A stretch of DNA of 60,669 nucleotides from assembly GCA_020850535.1 (NCBI GenBank), contig JADZEM010000086.1:1-60669 (forward strand), given 5' to 3'. Numbering within the stretch: the first letter of the stretch is position 1; the number at the start of each line of letters is the position of its first letter. The position numbers and the translations under genes were made by a program. Under the pieces are notes generated by a model. That model searched no databases. It had not been told where the DNA came from and saw only the letters and a program-made list of their open reading frames with translations. Below, piece by piece: positions 2,534-54,576 of the stretch. The stretch comes from Chloroflexota bacterium (GTDB lineage Bacteria > Chloroflexota > UBA6077 > JACCZL01).

Positions 2534-4282
2534 TCAGTCGGTGACGGCCCCGAGGCTCGCGTTGGACACGGTCTTCGCGTACTTTGCGAGCGCGCCAGAC
2601 GTGTACCTTGGCGGGGGCGGCGTCCAGGCGGCCAGCCGCCGCTGGATCTCCTCGCCCGGCAGGTTCACGTTGATCTCGCGCTTGTTGATGTCCACCGTGA
2701 TCGTGTCGCCGTCTTCGAGGATCGCGATGGCGCCGCCCTCCAGCGCTTCGGGGACGACGTGTCCGATGCTGAACCCGCGGCTCGCGCCGCTGAAGCGCCC
2801 GTCGGTGATGAGTACGACGTCCTCGCTGTGGCCCTGCCCGGCCAGGGCGCTGGTCACGCCGAGCATCTCGCGCATGCCAGGGCCGCCCTTCGGACCCTCG
2901 TAGCGGATCACCACCACGTCGCCGGAGTTGATCTCGCCGCGCATCACCGCCTGCATGGCTGGCTCTTCCTGGTCGAAGACCTTGACCGGGCCGGTGAACG
3001 TCTCGGACTTGACGCCCGCCACCTTGACGACCGCGCCGCCCGGCGCGAGGTTCCCGCGCAGGATCGCCAATCCACCCTGCTGGTAGCGCGGATTCGAGAT
3101 CTCGCGGACCACATCCTGTCCCTCGGACTCGGGGAAGCGGTCGAGGTGGTGGGCCCAGATCCCGCCCGCGATGGTCTTCTGGTTGGTGTCGAACATGCCG
3201 GCCTCGGCCAGCCGCTTGATGACGATGGGCAGGCCGCCCGCTTCGCCGAGGTCGGGCATCGAGTAGCGGCCACCGGGCAGCATGTCGCCGATGACGGGCG
3301 TGCGCCGGCTCAGCACGTCGAAATCGTCGATGCTCAGCTCGATCTTCGCATCGTGGGCGATGGCCAGGAAGTGGAGCACGGCGTTCGTCGAGCCGCCCGT
3401 CGCCAGCACCACGGCGATGGCGTTCAGGAACGCCTCGCGGGTCATGATGTCGCGCGGGCGGATGTTCTGCGCCAGCAGCTCAACGACGCGCTTGCCGGCC
3501 TCGTGGGCCTCCTGCATCTTGCGGCCGTCGACGGCCGGCAGCGTCGAGCCGCCAGGCAGCATCATGCCGAGCGCCTCGATGGACGAGGACATCGTGTTGG
3601 CCGTGAAAAGGCCGCCGCACGCGCCCGCGCCCGGGCTGGCGACGTTCTCGATGTCGCGGACCTCGTCAAACGTCATGTCGCCCTTCGAGTACTGGCCGAC
3701 CGCCTCGAAGACTGCCTGAATGGTGACCTTCTTGCCGCGATAGGTGCCCGGCAGGATGCTGCCGCCGTAGATGAAGACGGACGGCAGGTTCAGGCGAGCA
3801 ATCGCCATCAGGCAGCCGGGCAGGGTCTTGTCGCAGCCGGCCAGCGTGACCAGCCCGTCCAGGCGATGCCCGAACACGGCCAGCTCGATGGAGTCGGCGA
3901 TGATGTCGCGGCTGATCAGCGAGGCCTTCATGCCCTCGGTGCCCATCGCGATGCCGTCCGTCACCGAGATCGTGGTGAACTCGATGGGGACGCCGCCGGC
4001 CTCGCGGATGCCCTGCTTGACGTGGTCGGCCACCTGTTTGAGGTTCGCCTGACACGGCGAGAATTCGTTCCAGGTGCTGGCGATGCCGATCAGCGGTTTG
4101 TTGTCAAGGTCGTCGTTGGTGATACCGACGGCGTGAAGGTAGGAGCGGGCGGGCGCGCGCGATGCGCCCTCGGTCAGCTCGCGGCTGACGATCTTCAAGT
4201 CGACGCGCTTGCCAGCGCCATTGCTGCCAGCGCCATTGCTGCCAGCGCCATTGCTGCCTGAGCCGTTGCCCGACTGCGTCAC
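2534..4282 (-). CDS. ilvD: dihydroxy-acid dehydratase
   Basis: Dehydrates 2,3-dihydroxy-isovalerate and 2,3-dihydroxy-3-methylvalerate to the 2-keto acids of valine and isoleucine synthesis in the cytoplasm. The Fe-S and active-site motifs are clear: [10 protein letters not shown] near the middle of the N-terminal half, [14 protein letters not shown], and the C-terminal region [15 protein letters not shown]. The GTG at 4282 (582 aa) is chosen because AAGGGGA lies about 9 nt upstream; a longer frame starting at 4366 has no such site and reads Arg-rich. The N-terminus carries a low-complexity SNGAG tail encoded by a 15-bp tandem repeat (about 4212-4257), absent from most IlvD proteins. No other ilv gene is adjacent. 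Confidence 0.95.
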
Positions 4283-4440
4283 GTGCGCGGTCCCCTTTCC
4301 CGATGCAAAGCCAGCCGCACGCGACGCGCAGGAGCGCGCGCCGCGCCTCGCAAGCATAGCGGGCAACAGCAGACCGAGGGAAGGCAGCGGCGACGCGGCG
4401 TCGGGGCGGCCTGCGGCCTGGGGGCCGCGCTTCAGGGCCG

Positions 4441-6978
4441 TCAGCGGCGACGTGGCGTCGGGGTGGCCTGCGGCTTGGGGGCCGGGGTCGGCTGCGGACG
4501 CGTGTTCGGCTGCTGCGGCTTCGAGGCGGCCGTCGGCTGCGCTGGCGCCGCGGTCGGTTGGAACCGGTTGGCCGGCGCGGTGTCGGCCGGGCGTGGCGTC
4601 GCCTGGGGCGGCGGCCCGGGCGTGCGCCGCGGCTGGAGGATCGGCAGCCCGGGGATCAGGCCCGGCGCTGTGGGTGTGGGCTGGGCGCCCTCGCCCGGCT
4701 CGCCCTCGGCGGCCTCAGCGGCCTCTGGAGTCGTCGTCGTGGATGGCGCCACCGTGACCGTCACCGCTGGAGCGGGCGCGGCCGGTGCGGGCGCCGGCGC
4801 GGCGGTCGAGGATGGCGTTGCGCCCGGCTGCACGACCCGGCCGCCGCGCGGCACCGACTCGGCGGGGTAGAGGTCGGTCACGCAGGCCGTGTTGTTGGTG
4901 CAGATCTGGACGTCGACCAGCCCCGGCGGGCGGGTGAACTCGTCCGGTGGTAGCTGCAAGTAGTCCAGCGACGTATCCATCGCCTCGCGCCAGATCTTGC
5001 CCGCGCTCATCGAGCTGAGGACTTCCTTCATCGGGCGGTTGTCGGTGTTGCCGACCCACACGCCCACCGTCAGATTCGGGGTATAGCCCATCGTCCAGGT
5101 GTCGCGGTAGCTGTCGGTGGTGCCCGTCTTGGCCGCGCCCGGACGGGTCAGCTTCAGCATGCTGTTCGGGCCGTAGGTGATGAGGCGGGCGTTGTTGTCC
5201 GAGAGAATGCTGGTGACCATGTAGGCGTAACGCGGATCGACGATCTGCTCGCCCTGGGGCACCTTGTACTCTTCGAGCGTGTTCCCCTCCGCGTCCACGA
5301 TCTTGGTGATCGAGACCTGGGGAATCCGCAGCCCGTTGTTGGCGAGGACGGTGTACGCCGCCGTCATGTCGAGCGGCCGGACCTCCGCGCCGCCCAGCGA
5401 CATCGCCAGCCCGAGGCGGCGATTGTCCGTCCAGGTCGTGATGCCCATGCGCCGCGCCAGCTCGGCCACGCTCTCGACGCCCGCGAACTGGATCGTCTTG
5501 ACGGCCGGGATGTTCAGCGAGTTGCCCAGGGCGATGCGGGCCGTCACGTTGCCGTGGAACCGCTTGTCGTAATTCTCAGGCTCCCAGGTCCGGCCCAGCT
5601 CGTCCTTGATGGACAGCTTCTCGTCCACGATCATCTGGCCTGGCGTCCAGCCCTTGGTGAACGCCGAGAGGTAGACCAGCGGCTTGATGGTGGACCCCGG
5701 CTGCCGCTCGGAGACGGCGACGTTCACCTGCCCCTCGATGTCGGTGTTCCAGTAGTCCATGCTGCCGACCATCGCCAGGACTTCGCCGGTCTTCGGGTTC
5801 ATCACCACGATGGACGTGTTCTCGGCGTCACGCTGGTCGAGGTTCGGCTTGTTCGCCAGGGCGACCTCTTCCATCCTGGTCTGCAGGTCGAAGTCGAGCG
5901 ATGTGTAGATCTTCAAGCCGCCCTGGTAGAGCATCCGCGTGCCGTACTTCTCCTCGATCTGGCTTCGGATGTAGACGGCCCAATGGGGGGCCAGGAACGG
6001 CTGCTTCTGCGGCTGGTACCGCAGCTCGGCCTGGCTGGCGGCGTTCGCCTCGGCCTCGGTGATGAAGCCGTGGCGGACCATCTGTTCCAGCACGTAGGCC
6101 TGCCGGGCCTTGGCCGCCACCGCGTTCCGAAGCGGGTTGTAGACGGCAGGCGACTGCGGCAGGCCCGCCAGCATCGACGCCTCGGCCAGCGTCAGGTCGC
6201 GAGCGTGCTTCCCGAAATACCCCTGGCTGGCGGCCTCGATGCCGTAGGTCTGGTTTCCGTAGAAGATCTCGTTCAGGTAGAGCGTCAGGATCTGGGACTT
6301 CGAGACCTTCTGGGTGAGCTGATACGCCAACAGCGCCTCGCGGATCTTCCGCATCGGCGTCTGCTGGTAGCGCTCGTCCTCGGGGATCAGCACGTTCTTG
6401 ACCAGCTGCTGGGTGATCGTGCTGGCCCCTGAGACGATGTCCTGCTCGGCCAGGTTCTGGTAGAAGGCGCGCGCGATGCCCTTCGGCTCGATGCCCGGGT
6501 TCGAGTAGAAGTTGGCGTCCTCGGCGGCGAGCGTCGCGTCGATCAGGTACTGCGAGATCTCGCTGATCGGGACCACGGTCCGGCGGCCGGCGTCAGGGTC
6601 GAAGAACTCCCACAGCAGCCGGCCCTTGCGATCGTACAACTGGGCCGTCTTGAAGGTCTCGCGGCCGGCGATCTGGTTCAGCGACGGCAGATCGCGGTTG
6701 ATGCTGGCGTAGGCCGACGACGCCATGTGCATGCCGCCGAGGATCGCCATGACGCCCAGGCCTGCGAACCCCAAGCCGATGACGATCATCGTCAGGAAAG
6801 CGGCGCGGAGTGCGCTGCGCGGCTTCTGGCGCTGGCGGCGGCTGCGCGAACGAGCGCGCTGCTGAAGGGCCTTCAACTCCTCGCGCCAGGAGTCGGAGCC
6901 GTTGACCGGCTGCGTGAAACGCTGAGCCGCCCGTGAGGAGCGCCCATTCCGACCGTTGCCGCCAGATCCGTAGGCCAT
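4441..6978 (-). CDS. class A penicillin-binding protein (bifunctional transglycosylase/transpeptidase)
   Basis: Polymerises and cross-links peptidoglycan outside the membrane. The 845 residues read in order: Arg-rich cytoplasmic tail, one membrane anchor (about 57-85), a GT51 transglycosylase domain with the catalytic-Glu region [15 protein letters not shown] and [13 protein letters not shown], then a transpeptidase domain with QPGSTIKP (Ser-X-X-Lys) and AKTGTTD. The C-terminal 130 or so residues are Pro/Ala/Thr-rich with repeated TP motifs, a disordered tail common in Chloroflexota envelope proteins. At the 3' end the DNA around 4442-4484 is nearly repeated at 4385-4427 just past the stop, suggesting that the tail was shortened or extended by duplication. 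Confidence 0.93.
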
Positions 6979-17065: not shown

Positions 17066-17614
17066 ATGACCGAACCGTCCGCTCCAGGCGCCGAGCATGC
17101 GCCGAACCGACCGGCGTTTCGTGCCCATCCGACGCATCGGATTCTGCCGGACGACTTGCGGCTGCGAGCGCTGTCGCTCCTTGAAGGTATCCCGCTGTTT
17201 CGCGAGGTGCCCGCGCACCATCTCCGTGAGTTGGCGCGCTTCGCGCGTTCCGAATCGTTCTCAGCCGGCGAGGTCATCGTCAAGATGGGTGACCCCGGCT
17301 CCACGCTGTACATCGTGCGGTCCGGCATGGTCAGCGTCGTGCGGGAGCAGCCCGGAGGCGGCGAGATGCCGCTGGCGAAGCTCGGGCCGGGCGAGTTCTT
17401 CGGCGAGCTCTCGATCTTCGACGGGCACACGCGCTCTGCCACCGTCACGGCTGTCGAGGAGACGGCCACCGTGACGCTTGGCCGCTACGACCTTGTACGG
17501 CTGGTGAGCGGGAACCCCCAGATCGCTCTCTCGCTGTTGAAGTCGCTGAGCATTCGCCTGCGCGACACTGACGACCGCCTGGCCCGGACCGAGGCCGTGC
17601 ACCCGGCCGTGTAG
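17066..17614 (+). CDS. cyclic-nucleotide-binding-domain protein without DNA-binding domain
   Basis: 182 residues. After about 40 variable residues comes a single cNMP-binding beta-roll: LLEGIPLFREVPAHHLREL, GDPGSTLYIVRSGMVSVV, and the phosphate-binding cassette LGPGEFFGELSIFDGHTRSATV, with the conserved Gly-Glu pair and Arg. The chain ends soon after the C-helix (LSIRLRDTDDRLA) with no helix-turn-helix, so it is not a Crp-type repressor or activator by itself. It may sense cAMP, possibly from the cyclase at 44399-45334, though this link is inference. Confidence 0.85.
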   Translation: MTEPSAPGAEHAPNRPAFRAHPTHRILPDDLRLRALSLLEGIPLFREVPAHHLRELARFARSESFSAGEVIVKMGDPGSTLYIVRSGMVSVVREQPGGGEMPLAKLGPGEFFGELSIFDGHTRSATVTAVEETATVTLGRYDLVRLVSGNPQIALSLLKSLSIRLRDTDDRLARTEAVHPAV

Positions 17615-43298: not shown

Positions 43299-43935
43299 CC
43301 TTACCTCACATGGCGACTGCCAGCCAGTCATCCCGATCCACGCGTGATGACACACCGGGCCGGCGATTCGTCGCGCCAGGACGAGCGGCCGATGGGATCG
43401 TACCCAGGGTGTGTCTCGGTTCCACTCACGCTCCGTCAACAGCGCGTCAACGGGCGCCGAGCAGGCCGAGCCGAGGCGATGAGCGCCGCCTGCTTTCCGG
43501 CTGTTTGCCGGCTGTTGATGGAGCGTTGATGCGCCGAGACACCACGGGCAACAGGCGCGCCCGATCATCCGCCCTGCATCGGCATCGGCATCGGCATCGG
43601 CATCGGCATCGGCATCGGCAGCGGATCGGGAATGCCGCGTCAGACCATCTCGCTCGTGAGGAGGGACCGAAGGATGACGGGCGCAACCATCCACAAGCCC
43701 AGGCCCACGCAGATCCAAGAGGCCAGCGAGGCACGCACGGCGGGCGGCGTCCGGGCGCCCGTTGCGGGAGACGTCCTTCCACCTCGAGCTTCCACTCGCC
43801 GACGACTACACGGGAGAGGCTGATGTCCAGGACCACCATGCCGCCGCCATGATGGCGGGCATCCCGCCCGTGAGCTCGCCGTGGTGACGTTGGGCAGGGA
43901 GGTGCGCCGCCGAAGGGCATTGTCGGAGTAGGGCG
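43299..43935. other. intergenic region with hexanucleotide repeat
   Basis: It contains the CATCGG tandem repeat at 43577-43618. A short open frame with good ribosome-binding site (ATG 43674, 49 codons) starts sensibly (MTGATIHKPRPTQIQEASEA) but turns Arg-rich. The next frame then reads HLELPLADDYTGEADVQDHH to a stop at about 43887, so a small frameshifted gene is possible but unproven. Confidence 0.4.
43577..43618. repeat. CATCGG hexanucleotide tandem repeat, seven copies
   Basis: Seven perfect CATCGG units followed by one degenerate unit (CAGCGG). It is a simple-sequence tract likely to vary in copy number. Confidence 0.9.
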
Positions 43936-44526
43936 ATGAAGTGTACGCAGGCCATCGTCGGACTGACGCTCGTCGTGCTTGGAGGAGTGTTCCTGGTCGG
44001 GGGGCACGGGGACGTGTGGGCCCAGGAGCTGATCCGAACCGTCTGGCCGCTGTTGATTCTCGTCGTCGGCACCGGCATCGTCGTGCTCGTGACCGAGCGT
44101 CGAACCATCGGCGGCGCGGTCCTGGTGGTGGCTGGCGTCGTCGTGCTTCTGGCAAGGCGACTCGACGTCGTGCCCGAGACGGTATTTGCCGCCCTCTGGC
44201 CCTGGGGCGCGATCGCCGTTGGCATCTGGATCATGCTCCAGGTGCGGGACGCGAAGACGGCGCCGGGTCACTACACCTGGGAACGCTCACAATCGGCCGT
44301 CTCGCGTGAACGGTTGCGCCGCTGGTGGCGAGATCCCCCTGGCAGGCCCAGGAGCATCACGGCCGGGCGGTCCACGTCGACGACGCACTCCGACAGCATC
44401 AGCAAGCGCCGCGCAGGTCCGGAGCGAACACGGCAAGCCTGCCCTTCCGCCCACGGATCTGAACCGTCCGAGCATCAGTTGCCGGACGAAGCTCGTCGCA
44501 CACGCGGGACCAGACATCGTCGCTGA
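43936..44526 (+). CDS. small membrane protein with LiaI/LiaF-like transmembrane region
   Basis: 196 residues. The first 100 form four hydrophobic helices with AIVGLTLVVLGGVFLVGG, LIRTVWPLLILVVGTGIVVL and LDVVPETVFAALWPWGAIAV, matching the LiaI-LiaF-like (DUF5668) transmembrane layout linked to envelope stress sensing. From about residue 115 the chain is Arg/Ser-rich and overlaps the convergent cyclase gene by 128 bp, so the real gene may have been longer or shorter before a frameshift. Confidence 0.65.
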   Translation: MKCTQAIVGLTLVVLGGVFLVGGHGDVWAQELIRTVWPLLILVVGTGIVVLVTERRTIGGAVLVVAGVVVLLARRLDVVPETVFAALWPWGAIAVGIWIMLQVRDAKTAPGHYTWERSQSAVSRERLRRWWRDPPGRPRSITAGRSTSTTHSDSISKRRAGPERTRQACPSAHGSEPSEHQLPDEARRTRGTRHRR

Positions 44527-45334
44527 CCAGGATCGGCGCCCTCAGCCGCTTCGTCAGCGATTCCAGGCGGGCAGCGGTGTTGACGACATCTCCAATCGCC
44601 GTGAGCGATTGACGGTCGTCGACGCCGATTCGCCCGACGATGGTCGTTCCGTAGTGAATGCCAACGCCGATCCGAAACGCCACGCCGAAGTTTGGACGGA
44701 GGTACTGATTGAAGGCAGCCAGGTTTCGGTGCATCTGGATCGCCGCGCGCACCGCGTCGAGGCAGGCCTGACGGCCGTCGTCCGAGGACGCCGCCTCAAG
44801 CCCGAAGAGCGCCATCAGCCCGTCGCCCATGATCTTGTCGACGTAGCCGCCCTGCTCGACGACCGCGCCGCCCACGCTCTCGTAGTAGCGGTTGAGGACG
44901 TGGACGACGTCATAGGCCAGTCGGGTGTGCGTGAAGCGCGTGAAGTCACGGATGTCGGCGAAGAGCACGGCGAGCGCCCGCTCGTCGCCAACGGTGCCGA
45001 GCGACCCGGGCCGGATCTGGCTCAGTGCGAGGCGTAGATCGTCCTCGTCGCGGACCAGGCGTCTGACCCGGATCGTCCCGTCGCCGACGAGCCGGGTCTG
45101 GCAGGCCAGCCGGATCGTGCGCGGGAAGTGCCGGGTGGTCGTCAAGGCCTGTTCGGCCGGGGTCGGCTGCGCCAGAAGGTTCTGGCCGTCCAGGACGGCC
45201 ACGCGGCAGGTGCTGCATCGGGCGTTGCCGCCGCAGGCGTGGGCATGCGCGATGCCATGCCGGAGTGAGGCGCTCAGCAGCGTCTCGCCCGGGTCTGCGT
45301 CGACCGGGCCATCACCCTCGAACAGAACGCGCAT
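44399..45334 (-). CDS. [2Fe-2S] ferredoxin - class III adenylate/guanylate cyclase fusion
   Basis: 311 residues. Residues 1-95 are a plant-type ferredoxin with cluster ligands C34, C40, C43 and C78 (CGGNARCSTC). Residues 115-300 are a class III cyclase: first metal Asp D127 in LFADIRDFTRF, second D171 in DKIMGDGLMALFG, then GVGIHYGTTIVGRIG and AIGDVVNTAARLE with the transition-state Asn/Arg. All catalytic positions are present, so cyclic nucleotide production gated by the redox state of the cluster is plausible. The Lys and Asp pattern suggests ATP rather than GTP, but this is not certain. Its start overlaps the upstream regulator gene by 23 bp. Confidence 0.92.
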   Translation of the reverse strand: MRVLFEGDGPVDADPGETLLSASLRHGIAHAHACGGNARCSTCRVAVLDGQNLLAQPTPAEQALTTTRHFPRTIRLACQTRLVGDGTIRVRRLVRDEDDLRLALSQIRPGSLGTVGDERALAVLFADIRDFTRFTHTRLAYDVVHVLNRYYESVGGAVVEQGGYVDKIMGDGLMALFGLEAASSDDGRQACLDAVRAAIQMHRNLAAFNQYLRPNFGVAFRIGVGIHYGTTIVGRIGVDDRQSLTAIGDVVNTAARLESLTKRLRAPILVSDDVWSRVCDELRPATDARTVQIRGRKGRLAVFAPDLRGAC

Positions 45335-45953
45335 CGTGCGGCACCTCGAAGCAGCAGCGGGGTGGGGCGCCCCGCTCGCACCGTTCTCGAACGGCCGCTC
45401 CGATGACGCGACTCAACAGCAGCTCGGCGAGGTGACAGGCTCCGGGGCTCCGGGACACGACAGCGCCGACCGGGCAACTGTAGCCCCGAATCAGGAACGC
45501 GTCGTCGCGCTCCTCGACCTCCGGCAGGCCGCCCATGTCCCGCAGGACCGCCGCCCCGCACGCCACGCGGCTCCGCAGGTCGCCGGGTGGCGCGACGCGG
45601 CCGCTCGACAGGCGGTCGCTCAGGTCGTCGAGAACCTGAGCCAACTGCTCCGGCGCCAGGCGCTCGGCGAGGGTCTCCAGGAGCGCGGCCAGGATCTCGT
45701 CGTACGCCTTCGGGAAGAGGGTGTCTGCCTCCGGGGTGAGTTCGTAGGTGTAGGCGGGCTTGCCAACCCCGCGCCGCGTGCCGTGCTGGCGAACCAGGCC
45801 GTCCCGTTCGAGCGTCGCCAGGTGGCTCCGGACGCCGTTGTCGGTGAGCCCAAGGGCCTGGGCGAGCTCGTCGACGGTGCGACCGGCCCGGCGGAGCAGC
45901 ACGACGATCTGGCCGCGGGTCGTGGCGAAGAATCGGGTGGTCCAGCCGCTCAT
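45312..45953 (-). CDS. SufR/ArsR-like winged-helix regulator with C-terminal cysteine cluster
   Basis: 213 residues from ATG 45953 (GGGAG 5 nt upstream). The N-terminal winged helix (RAGRTVDELAQALGLTDNGV, VRSHLATLERDGLVRQHGTR) resembles SufR and related regulators. The C-terminal half carries C132, C160, C173, C192, C200 and C201 in the order expected for a [4Fe-4S]- or [2Fe-2S]-binding sensor (RGYSCPVGAVV, SPGACHLAELLLSRVIG, RCERGAPPRCCFEV). It overlaps the ferredoxin-cyclase gene and is divergent from the DoxX gene, which it may control from the shared 240-bp intergenic region. Confidence 0.85.
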   Translation of the reverse strand: MSGWTTRFFATTRGQIVVLLRRAGRTVDELAQALGLTDNGVRSHLATLERDGLVRQHGTRRGVGKPAYTYELTPEADTLFPKAYDEILAALLETLAERLAPEQLAQVLDDLSDRLSSGRVAPPGDLRSRVACGAAVLRDMGGLPEVEERDDAFLIRGYSCPVGAVVSRSPGACHLAELLLSRVIGAAVRERCERGAPPRCCFEVPHDARSVRG

Positions 45954-45975
45954 GACGTCTCCCAACATTGCGTTC

Positions 45976-46003
45976 ACCATAGCAGAAACTGTGCGGAAAA
46001 CAA
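45976..46003 (-). promoter_or_regulatory. promoter of the regulator-cyclase operon
   Basis: On the minus strand TTGTTT (46003-45998) and TATGGT (45981-45976) are 16 bp apart, about 22 bp before the regulator ATG. Two copies of AGTTTCTG flank the -35 region and could be operator half-sites. Confidence 0.45.
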
Positions 46004-46021
46004 AGAAAGTCCAGAAACTCA

Positions 46022-46050
46022 TTGACATACTGGCTGTGTGGAGCTATGCT
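46022..46050 (+). promoter_or_regulatory. sigma-70-type promoter of the DoxX gene
   Basis: TTGACA (46022-46027), a 17-bp spacer and TATGCT (46045-46050). A perfect -35 with ideal spacing is rare in this GC-rich window. The start site would be near 46057, giving a leader of about 135 nt. Confidence 0.6.
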
Positions 46051-46191: not shown

Positions 46192-46629
46192 ATGGCTCGC
46201 GCAGTGGCCCCCGGCACCATCGACGCCGCCGGACAGGCGGAGATCCACGACCGGAGCGACCCGACCTATCAGGCGTGGCAGATCCTGCACGTCGGGTTCA
46301 CGGTCACCCCTATTGTGGCCGGACTCGACAAGTTCTTTGGCCTCCTCGTGAACTGGGACCAGTACCTCGCCCCGGCAATCGCCAACCTCGCACCGCTCGG
46401 GACGTACCTGATGGTCGTGGTCGGCGTGGTCGAGGTCGTGGCTGGTGTGGTGGTCTTCCTGCGCCCCCGCTTCGGCGGCTACCTGGTCGCCGCCTGGCTC
46501 TTGGGGATCATCGTGAACCTGCTCTTGATTCCCGGCTACTACGACGTCGCCCTGCGCGACTTCGGCCTCCTGCTTGGGGCGCTCGCGCTCGGGCGGCTCA
46601 GCGAGCGCTTCGCCCCACGTCTCTGGTAG
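46192..46629 (+). CDS. DoxX-like membrane protein
   Basis: 145 residues from ATG 46192 with GGAGGTG 6 nt upstream. Four membrane helices follow a 30-residue soluble start: HVGFTVTPIVAGLDKFFG, GTYLMVVVGVVEVVAGVVVF, GYLVAAWLLGIIVNLLLI and FGLLLGALALGRLSE, the usual DoxX/SURF4-like layout. Members act in quinone or thiol-linked redox reactions and oxidative-stress complexes; the exact role here is unknown. It is divergent from the Cys-cluster regulator. Confidence 0.85.
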   Translation: MARAVAPGTIDAAGQAEIHDRSDPTYQAWQILHVGFTVTPIVAGLDKFFGLLVNWDQYLAPAIANLAPLGTYLMVVVGVVEVVAGVVVFLRPRFGGYLVAAWLLGIIVNLLLIPGYYDVALRDFGLLLGALALGRLSERFAPRLW

Positions 46630-46735: not shown

Positions 46736-47476
46736 CTACCGGGGCGTTGAGTCGCCGCCCGGGCGCGGGGGCTGAGGAAGCTGGTCCGTGGGGCGGATGA
46801 AGCGGTAGCCGAGGCCCCGCTCAGTGCGGATGTAGCGGGGCCGCTCCGGGTCGTCGCCCAGCTTGTCACGTAGGCGCCGGACGTAGACGCGGATGTAGTC
46901 CACCTCGTCGACGTATTCGCGGCCCCAGACCTTGGCGAGCAGCGTGCCGTGGGGCAGGACGCGGCCGGCGTTGCGGACCAGGTGGTAGAGCAGCTTGTAC
47001 TCGGTCGGCGTCAGCTCGATCCGCTCGCCGCGCAGGCGCGCCTCCTGGGCCGCGAAGTCCACCTCCAGCTCGCCGGACTGGAAGGACGAGGCGCGGCTCG
47101 TCGGCGCCGGCATGTCGAGCCGGCGCAGGACCGCCCTGACTCGGGCCAGCAGCTCCAGGTGGTCGAACGGCTTGGTGACGTAGTCGTCGGCGCCGAGCTC
47201 GAGGCCCCGGACCTTGTCGATGGTGTCGTCGCGGGCGGTCAGCATCACAATCGGCACGTCGGAGAACTCGCGGATCCGCTGGAGCACCCGGTAGCCGTCC
47301 AGGTCGGGCAGGCCGACATCCAGCAGCACCAGGTCGGGGCTCTCCTCCTCGACGAGGTCGATGGCGCGCTCACCTTCGCCGGTCCCGAGCACGTCTACGT
47401 CGCGCCACTGCAGCGTGAAGCCGAGGCGGACCGACTCGACCACGTCCGGGTCGTCGTCCACGATCAGGATCTTCAC
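46736..47476 (-). CDS. OmpR/KdpE-type response regulator
   Basis: 246 residues from GTG 47476, overlapping the kinase stop. Receiver: VDDDPDVVESVRLGF, phospho-acceptor in DLVLLDVGLPDLDGY, VMLTARDDT and DDYVTKPFDH. Winged helix: LTPTEYKLLYHLVRNAGRVL and YIRTERGLGYRFIRP. Closely similar to the regulator at 38906-39613. A short Pro-rich tail (PQPPRPGGDSTPR) ends the chain. Confidence 0.94.
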   Translation of the reverse strand: MKILIVDDDPDVVESVRLGFTLQWRDVDVLGTGEGERAIDLVEEESPDLVLLDVGLPDLDGYRVLQRIREFSDVPIVMLTARDDTIDKVRGLELGADDYVTKPFDHLELLARVRAVLRRLDMPAPTSRASSFQSGELEVDFAAQEARLRGERIELTPTEYKLLYHLVRNAGRVLPHGTLLAKVWGREYVDEVDYIRVYVRRLRDKLGDDPERPRYIRTERGLGYRFIRPTDQLPQPPRPGGDSTPR

Positions 47477-48477
47477 AGCTCTCCCAGCTCGGCGGGGCCA
47501 TGGGCCGGCACGCGCAGCGCGAACGAGCTGCCCCGAGCCACCTCGGTTTCGACCTGTATGGTGCCGCCGTGGGCCTCGGCGATTGCCAGCGAGATCGGGA
47601 GCCCGAGCCCCGCGCCGGGACCGCTGGAGTCGCTCGCCGAGGTGAAGAAGCGTTCGAAGAGACGCGCCCGGTGCTCGGGCGCGATGCCCGGCCCTCGGTC
47701 TTCGACGGTCCAGATGACGTCGCCGCCGTCCACGGCCACGCTCAGTCCGATCGTGGCGCCCGGCGGTGAGAACTTCTGCGCGTTCGACAACAGGTTCAGC
47801 AAGGCCTGTTCGAGGCGTCGGCGGTCGCCGTACACCCAGACCGGACCGTCGGGCAGGTGAAGGTCGACGTGCTGATCCGCAGCCTGGAGCAGGCTTGCCA
47901 GCGCCGTGCCGGCCTCGCACGCCAGGGCGACCGCGTCGAAGCGGCGTGCCTGGAGCGTCAACGTTCCGGACCGGAAGCGGGCGAGGTCCAACACGTCGGA
48001 CACCAGCCGCTGCATCCGCTCGGCGCTCCGCGCGATCCGGTCGAGGAGCTGGGCCTGCGCGGCCTCGTCGGGCCTGACGCGCGGGTCGCGCAGGAGACCG
48101 ACCGAGGCCCGGACCGCCGTCAGCGGCGTCCGCAACTCGTGGGCGATGGTCGAGAGCAGGTCGGTCCGGAGCCGCTCTAGCGCCTCCAGCTGGGTCACCA
48201 CGTCGGTCTGCCCGCCGATGGCGTCGCCGGCGTATTCCTGGCCGAGTGGTGTGAGCACGTAGCTGGTCCGATCACCCTCGCCGGACGCCACCCGGACCAG
48301 ACCGAGGCTCGCCAGACGGGCCATGAGCGCGGCGGCCCCGTCCGCCCGCCCGGCCGCCGCGAGCGCGCCGAAGCGCTCGGCAAGCTGCGCCGGCGTGGCG
48401 CCCTCGCCGACCAGGATCAGCGCGGCGGTGTCCAGGGTGTGCGCGGGCGCGGTGAACGAGCCGGATGACGACGCCAT
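47473..48477 (-). CDS. histidine kinase with N-terminal winged-helix-like domain
   Basis: 334 residues from ATG 48477. Residues 15-86 read like a winged helix-turn-helix (AALILVGEGATPAQLAERFG, ALMARLASLGLVRVASGEGD, SYVLTPLGQEYAGD) rather than any usual sensor. It joins directly to HisKA (STIAHELRTPLTAVRASVGL, His113) and HATPase (NLLSNAQKFSPPGATIGLSV, VEDRGPGIAPEHRARLFERF, GAGLGLPISLAIAEAHGGTI). There are no membrane helices. The domain could bind DNA, a protein or a small ligand. It forms a pair with the regulator at 46736-47476. Confidence 0.88.
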   Translation of the reverse strand: MASSSGSFTAPAHTLDTAALILVGEGATPAQLAERFGALAAAGRADGAAALMARLASLGLVRVASGEGDRTSYVLTPLGQEYAGDAIGGQTDVVTQLEALERLRTDLLSTIAHELRTPLTAVRASVGLLRDPRVRPDEAAQAQLLDRIARSAERMQRLVSDVLDLARFRSGTLTLQARRFDAVALACEAGTALASLLQAADQHVDLHLPDGPVWVYGDRRRLEQALLNLLSNAQKFSPPGATIGLSVAVDGGDVIWTVEDRGPGIAPEHRARLFERFFTSASDSSGPGAGLGLPISLAIAEAHGGTIQVETEVARGSSFALRVPAHGPAELGEL

Positions 48478-48689
48478 AGCAGAAGGATACTCAACAACGA
48501 GGATCTCACCCGTGGCGCGGCCGACCCCGCCGGCCGCGTGCCACAACGGCGACCGCCGGATCGGCCCGCTCCAGGCGCCTGACCGGCGAGGAGCTCAGCG
48601 CGACATCCGCGACTCCCCTCGCTCCGGGCATCATCGACGGTTCCTCCAGACGGCCATCTGTGCCCTGTGACCTGGGCGTCAGTAGTCAG

Positions 48690-53889: not shown

Positions 53890-54576
53890 GTGGTAGACGT
53901 CCCTGCCTGCGCGGCCGGCGTCCCATTCTTGCGTGCGCTCCCGGACGATGCACTGGCGGAGCTGGGACGGTCGATGCGCCATCGCCACGTGGCGAGCGGT
54001 CAGGCGCTGGCCCTGGCCGGTGAGCCGGTCGAGCACCTGATCGTCGTGGCTCAGGGGCGGCTCCGACTGGCGCAGGCAACGCCTGGCGGGCGCGAGCAAG
54101 TTCTGCGCACGCTCGGACCCGGCGAGTTTCTGGGAGAGCTGGCGCTGTTCTCGCCGGTCGTGCACGAAGGCGATCTGACGGCGATTGAGCCATCCGACGT
54201 GTGTCTCGTCAGCCGTCAGGCCGTTCAGGATCTGATGCGGCAGCATCCTGAGGTCGCCGTGCGGCTCGTGGAGACGCTCGCGCGCCGCCTGATCCAGGCC
54301 GAGCGCGCCATCGCCGATCTCGGGCTGCATGATGTCGGTCAGCGGCTGGCCGGAGAGCTCCTGCGGGAAGCGGCGAGCGGCGGACCGGTGCGCGAGGGGA
54401 CACGCGTTCGAGTCACGGTTCCGTGGCTCGAGATCGCCATGCGCATCGGCACGACGCCTGAGACGCTGAGCCGTCGGCTTCGCGCCCTGGAGACAGCCGG
54501 CATCGTCCGTCAAGAACGCGCTCGGACGGTGGTCATCCTTGATCCCGTGCGTCTGCACGAGCTGGCCGACGGCTGA
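53890..54576 (+). CDS. Crp/Fnr-family transcriptional regulator
   Basis: 228 residues from GTG 53890 (weak ribosome-binding site). cNMP-type sensor barrel (FLRALPDDALAELGRSM, LGPGEFLGELALFSP), long dimer helix, and a Crp-type HTH with VPWLEIAMRIGTTPETLSRR and LRALETAGIVRQERARTVVI. The E-S/T-x-S-R-like recognition helix fits TTGA/C-type half-sites. Only one Cys (C7) is seen, so an oxygen-sensing Fe-S cluster like that of Fnr is not supported. A matching dyad lies right after the gene at 54617. Confidence 0.93.
   Translation: MVDVPACAAGVPFLRALPDDALAELGRSMRHRHVASGQALALAGEPVEHLIVVAQGRLRLAQATPGGREQVLRTLGPGEFLGELALFSPVVHEGDLTAIEPSDVCLVSRQAVQDLMRQHPEVAVRLVETLARRLIQAERAIADLGLHDVGQRLAGELLREAASGGPVREGTRVRVTVPWLEIAMRIGTTPETLSRRLRALETAGIVRQERARTVVILDPVRLHELADG

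Follow-up and report, generated by a model that had tools for sequence, protein, structure and literature searches.

The locus lies in a 60,669-nucleotide stretch of DNA from a Chloroflexota bacterium, referred to here as the window, and consists of a gene for a ferredoxin-cyclase fusion protein, a gene for a SufR-like regulator, and a divergent DoxX-like gene with a promoter and a putative operator in front of it (Table 1). In the fusion protein, the Fer2 domain (PF00111) covers residues 11-82 (43.4 bits, cut-off 21) and the Guanylate_cyc domain (PF00211) residues 121-297 (68.8 bits, cut-off 21.9). All four cluster cysteines of the ferredoxin domain are present (C34-x5-C40-x2-C43-x34-C78), and the cyclase keeps every catalytic residue, namely the metal-binding aspartates D127 and D171 and the transition-state pair N252/R256, together with an intact ATP-type base-recognition pair, K167/T245. 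The roles of the metal Asp, Asn/Arg and Lys/Thr positions are established for class III cyclases. These scores and residues bear out the original prediction of a ferredoxin fused to a catalytically complete class III cyclase. A sequence search for solved relatives led from the cyclase part to class III cyclases and from residues 10-86 to the ferredoxin 1i7h, while an AlphaFold model built on 36 aligned sequences reached a mean pLDDT of 88.1, its cyclase part having the Spirulina adenylyl cyclase CyaC (1wc1) as top Foldseek match. By its residues the protein is a complete class IIIb enzyme, and it is predicted to produce cAMP from ATP. Upstream of the cyclase start the open frame extends for 26 codons only, in DNA that also encodes the regulator, so that there is no 6TM anchor with the tetra-His heme signature.

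Table 1. Position and basis of assignment of the features at the locus (window coordinates)
Feature	Position	Strand	Basis
Soluble [2Fe-2S] ferredoxin - class IIIb nucleotide cyclase fusion, 311 aa	44399..45334	(-)	Pfam domains, residues, AlphaFold model
SufR-like ArsR-family regulator, C160-x12-C173-x18-C192-x7-C200	45312..45953	(-)	HTH_5, TIGR02702, Cys alignment
Predicted operator of the regulator, AAGTCCA-GAAACTCA-TTGACAT	46007..46028	(.)	Dyad AAGTCAA-N8-TTGACTT, 2 mismatches
Sigma-70-type promoter TTGACA-17-TATGCT of the DoxX-like gene, -35 within the operator	46022..46050	(+)	Promoter match
DoxX-like 4TM membrane protein, 145 aa, divergent	46192..46629	(+)	PF07681 via relatives

Two further elements were observed near the cyclase gene. 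A LiaF-like membrane ORF (43936-44526, + strand) is convergent with it and covers its 3' end by 128 bases, with a C-terminal tail that looks unlike protein. A GCATCG hexanucleotide repeat of 9.2 copies (43576-43629), possibly a length-variable tract, lies on the start side of a universal-stress-protein ORF. The two cNMP-binding proteins of the window (17066-17614 and 53890-54576) were confirmed by domain search, the former with no recognised DNA-binding domain. Their proposed role as dedicated readers was set aside: the genome holds 20 CNB domains and 12 class III cyclases, nothing links these two specifically to the locus, and although two domains are slightly above the 0.16 expected per 60 kb, they had been chosen after the fact.

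Regulator, putative operator and divergent gene

The regulator combines an ArsR-type winged helix (HTH_5, 30 bits over cut-off) with a C terminus rich in Cys. Homologue alignment and a GGGAG ribosome site favored ATG 45953 as its start over the longest ORF, which begins at 46028. Its gene shares 23 nt (45312-45334) with that of the cyclase, which suggests a single transcript for both. Of the initial description as a SufR-like protein with six cysteines overlapping the cyclase, the six cysteines (132, 160, 173, 192, 200 and 201) and the overlap stood, but only four of the residues are conserved and the score with the SufR model TIGR02702 (65.7 bits) was far under its cut-off of 178.8. Specifically, C160, C173, C192 and C200 were found in 25-26 of the 26 aligned sequences, while C132 is peculiar to the window regulator and C201 occurs in nine. 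No suf genes were found near the regulator, and the SUFBD_core profile (PF01458), which matched in 14 of 14 control genomes, was unmatched in this 7.65-Mb, 96% complete assembly, so that the regulator is unlikely to act here as a classical suf repressor.

It is known that the function of Rv1460, the SufR of Mycobacterium tuberculosis, requires C203-x12-C216-x27-C244 (PMC6034842). In the window regulator, C160-x12-C173 is followed by x26 up to the conserved C200 or by x27 up to C201, and this closeness in spacing makes it plausible that the protein carries an Fe-S cluster with ligands among C160, C173, C192 and C200. The same four cysteines might instead sense thiol oxidation or a metal such as zinc or copper, an explanation that we regard as possible but rather less than probable. 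The ArsR fold, the missed SufR cut-off and the presence next to regulator relatives of a cupredoxin gene and of a member of the PpoB2 'copper chaperone' family speak for it, but the Rv1460-like ligand spacing argues against it, and relatives of the regulator adjoin Rieske genes too.

We scanned the regions upstream of regulator genes for dyads of any kind, with no pattern set beforehand. Of 26 such regions, 13 contained a TCAA-N8-TTGA dyad, whereas no dyad was shared by more than 3 regions in any of 50 shuffled sets; these shuffles were mononucleotide ones, and some of the loci are related. The extended pattern AAGTCAA-N8-TTGACTT, allowing up to 3 mismatches, was found upstream of 18 of the 28 regulator genes, in most cases at 46-84 bases from the start codon side, the pattern having been learned from these same loci. 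At this stringency 0.23 sites are expected by chance in the whole 60 kb window. The window copy falls inside 45976-46050, the region that had been proposed for footprinting of the regulator, and its right half includes TTGACA, the -35 box of the single promoter match in front of the DoxX-like gene (0.1 expected in shuffles). The near-consensus promoter of the divergent gene was thus as predicted, while its DoxX identity is supported only through relatives: of six family members, PF07681 matched five (best E 1.1e-4), the window protein itself being the one without a match to it. The position of the operator supports a direct control of both the doxX-like gene and the regulator-cyclase operon by a regulator that would bind there. 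Genome-wide, the pattern at 2 mismatches occurred in 5 places versus 2 in a reversed control, suggesting that the regulator acts locally; only the window site was convincing, and we discarded the idea of a wider regulon.

Relatives of the regulator were present in 145 of 301 genomes of the same phylum. In 25 neighbourhoods compared, they were often divergent from or adjoining redox genes (a DUF2231-Rieske fusion, DUF2231, cupredoxin), and genes for GTP cyclohydrolase I and RibD-type proteins also recurred. Relatives of the DoxX-like gene were confined to five other genomes of the sample, two of which (G097 and G145) show the same divergent arrangement with the regulator. None of the neighbourhoods examined held a cyclase next to a regulator relative, and no such regulator was found beside the soluble ferredoxin-cyclases of other genomes that were searched for it. 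By these comparisons the coupling of regulator and cyclase is specific to the window lineage and, since the pairing is absent from all other sampled genomes, a functional coupling rests on one genome. The main rival to a concerted action of the whole locus is therefore that the regulator acts on its own gene and on the DoxX-like one, with the cyclase as a co-transcribed passenger that follows a signal of its own. The regulator-DoxX pair kept without a cyclase in G097 and G145, the cyclase-free neighbourhoods of the other regulators and the unrelated contexts of soluble ferredoxin-cyclases elsewhere are all consistent with this explanation. We nevertheless consider it unlikely, because the 23-nt overlap, with its good ribosome site, ties the expression of the two genes, and because another soluble member (G317) is divergent to a redoxin gene and thus again in a redox setting.

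Other neighbours of the regulator were also seen. An OmpR-type response regulator lies close to it in the window (46736-48546, - strand) and in three other loci (L126, L164 and L177), and both the window and L126 have a histidine kinase with it; the arrangement may be a conserved neighbourhood or chance. In G145, a gene for an NnrS/DUF1858 protein (L189, 823-2853, + strand) is upstream of the regulator-DoxX pair, which hints at nitrosative stress.

The soluble ferredoxin-cyclases

Anchorless ferredoxin-cyclases were also found in an Actinomycetota MAG (L039), a gammaproteobacterial MAG (L040), a Chloroflexi MAG (L046), a Hymenobacter plasmid (L187), two Rhizobium plasmids (L194 and L195) and two more genomes of the same phylum as the window (G317 and G328), whereas a search of phages yielded only cyclase-domain matches without ferredoxin. 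The genome of the window itself carries, in addition, a 6TM ferredoxin-cyclase (G000:C131). In a tree of the cyclase part only, rooted on cyclases that lack the ferredoxin, the ferredoxin-cyclases formed one clade (support 100/99), within which the 6TM proteins made up a clade (97/98), seven scattered soluble proteins another (100/98) and the window protein a third, deep branch. A single soluble clade that includes the window protein was not rejected by the data (AU p 0.286), and full-length unrooted trees split the soluble forms, the window protein included, from the 6TM forms (100/99). These positions indicate that the window protein did not arise by recent truncation of CyaC. The idea that a CyaC gene had lost its anchor in recent times was accordingly rejected, the 6TM proteins with the own-genome copy being a separate clade and no remnant of an anchor being present in front of the gene.

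None of the other seven soluble proteins in the tree (L039, L040, L046, L187, L194, L212 and L213) retains the base-recognition lysine, which is replaced by Asn in five and by Ser and Asp in the remaining ones; its Thr partner is replaced in three. Among the soluble proteins of the tree, the Lys/Thr pair is thus found in the window protein alone, while the catalytic Asp, Asn and Arg are kept in all seven others. The replaced lysine, together with the retained catalytic residues, suggests that the substrate of those seven may differ. Moreover, three members (those of R. gallicum, R. etli 8C-3 and G328) have a C-terminal Rieske [2Fe-2S] fusion, PF00355 scoring 38.4 bits in L194 and 55.3 bits in L213, with R. 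etli 8C-3 assigned by its near-identical sequence. We tentatively propose, with rather less than even confidence, that the anchorless ferredoxin-cyclases are a distinct multi-phylum family of soluble redox-sensing nucleotide cyclases, some with a Rieske domain and most with a changed base-recognition residue and possibly another product, of which the window protein would be a deep ATP-type branch placed under an Fe-S regulator.

The Fer2-cyclase-Rieske proteins (L194, 3983-5362, + strand; L195; L213, 1523-2989, - strand) unite two types of Fe-S domain with a class III cyclase in a single polypeptide; a literature search on cyclases combined with Rieske, ferredoxin and redox sensing gave no match, a weak result given that most subscription journals were outside its coverage. 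In L212, the soluble ferredoxin-cyclase (2747-3655, - strand) is divergent from a redoxin/AhpC-TSA gene (3890-4528, + strand) and is flanked on its other side by putative genes for a Ser/Thr kinase and a PP2C phosphatase.

A proposed redox-response locus

Redox gating of an anchorless ferredoxin-cyclase is, to our knowledge, not known for any member. The ferredoxin domain could be there for structural or docking reasons, or its Fe-S cluster could be destroyed in sensing O2 or NO; assays are not known for any of the soluble proteins and no obvious electron donor gene adjoins the cyclase, but we find it rather unlikely that reversible gating is lacking, as the four cluster cysteines were invariant across every soluble and 6TM member compared.

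On balance we favor, by a modest degree of confidence, a small autoregulated redox-response locus in which regulator, operator, DoxX-like gene and soluble ferredoxin-cyclase work together. The regulator would bind the dyad upstream of its own gene, thereby covering the -35 box of the DoxX-like promoter, and by analogy with SufR it would repress in both directions as long as its Cys-cluster (probably Fe-S) is intact. Once the cluster is oxidised or lost, the regulator would be expected to release the DNA, as SufR does, leading to more cyclase and more DoxX-like protein. The ferredoxin domain, in turn, may exchange electrons with cytoplasmic partners and in this way switch cAMP synthesis, much as Sinorhizobium CyaC does from the quinone pool. 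Since there is no heme anchor, the electron partner should be cytoplasmic, and the enzyme would monitor pools of soluble reductant without sensing quinones directly. A same stress could thus set both the amounts of the cyclase and the DoxX-like protein and the activity of the cyclase.

CyaC provides a precedent for cAMP levels being set by the respiratory quinone pool, by way of a cyclase bearing heme and [2Fe-2S] centers. The anchorless enzyme, small, soluble and cleanly testable, would reveal if a ferredoxin alone can gate a cyclase, and the predicted operator offers a direct handle on the targets of the regulator. In addition, the Rieske-bearing fusions, and the changed substrate residue in the soluble clade, raise the question of which nucleotide is made.

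Comparison with known systems

Ferredoxin-cyclases are already known, and the window protein is an anchorless form of a known redox-sensing type of cyclase. The view that Fe-S control of cAMP is unusual was consequently only half right, its novelty being lost to the 6TM-ferredoxin-cyclases and the redox-regulated CyaC that are described in two papers (PMC4821796, PMC10463352). As summarized in the latter, which cites Wissig 2019, the CyaC of Sinorhizobium meliloti has a 6TM diheme anchor, contains two hemes b plus a [2Fe-2S] cluster and responds to the redox state of quinones, which controls its cyclase activity. The window protein likewise has the ferredoxin directly before a class IIIb cyclase, and its cluster cysteines and catalytic residues are the same as those of a record annotated as CyaC; it differs in lacking the membrane quinone-sensing anchor and in branching outside the 6TM clade. 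The same domain order is found in the ferredoxin-associated class IIIb adenylyl cyclase cluster (PMC4821796), in which the ferredoxin follows a 6TM anchor with two predicted hemes and precedes the catalytic domain, although that cluster was defined by its 6TM anchors and in alpha- and beta-proteobacteria, whereas the window protein is anchorless.

With the SufR proteins of cyanobacteria and of M. tuberculosis (Rv1460), the window regulator shares the winged helix, a C-terminal Cys set of closely similar spacing and an expected autoregulation, but it falls far under the SufR cut-off, is not beside suf genes and belongs to an assembly in which SufBD was not found. Finally, the photoactivated adenylate cyclases, which are among the Foldseek neighbours of the window protein, also combine a soluble sensor domain with a class III cyclase, but what they sense is light, while the sensor of the window protein would be its Fe-S domain.
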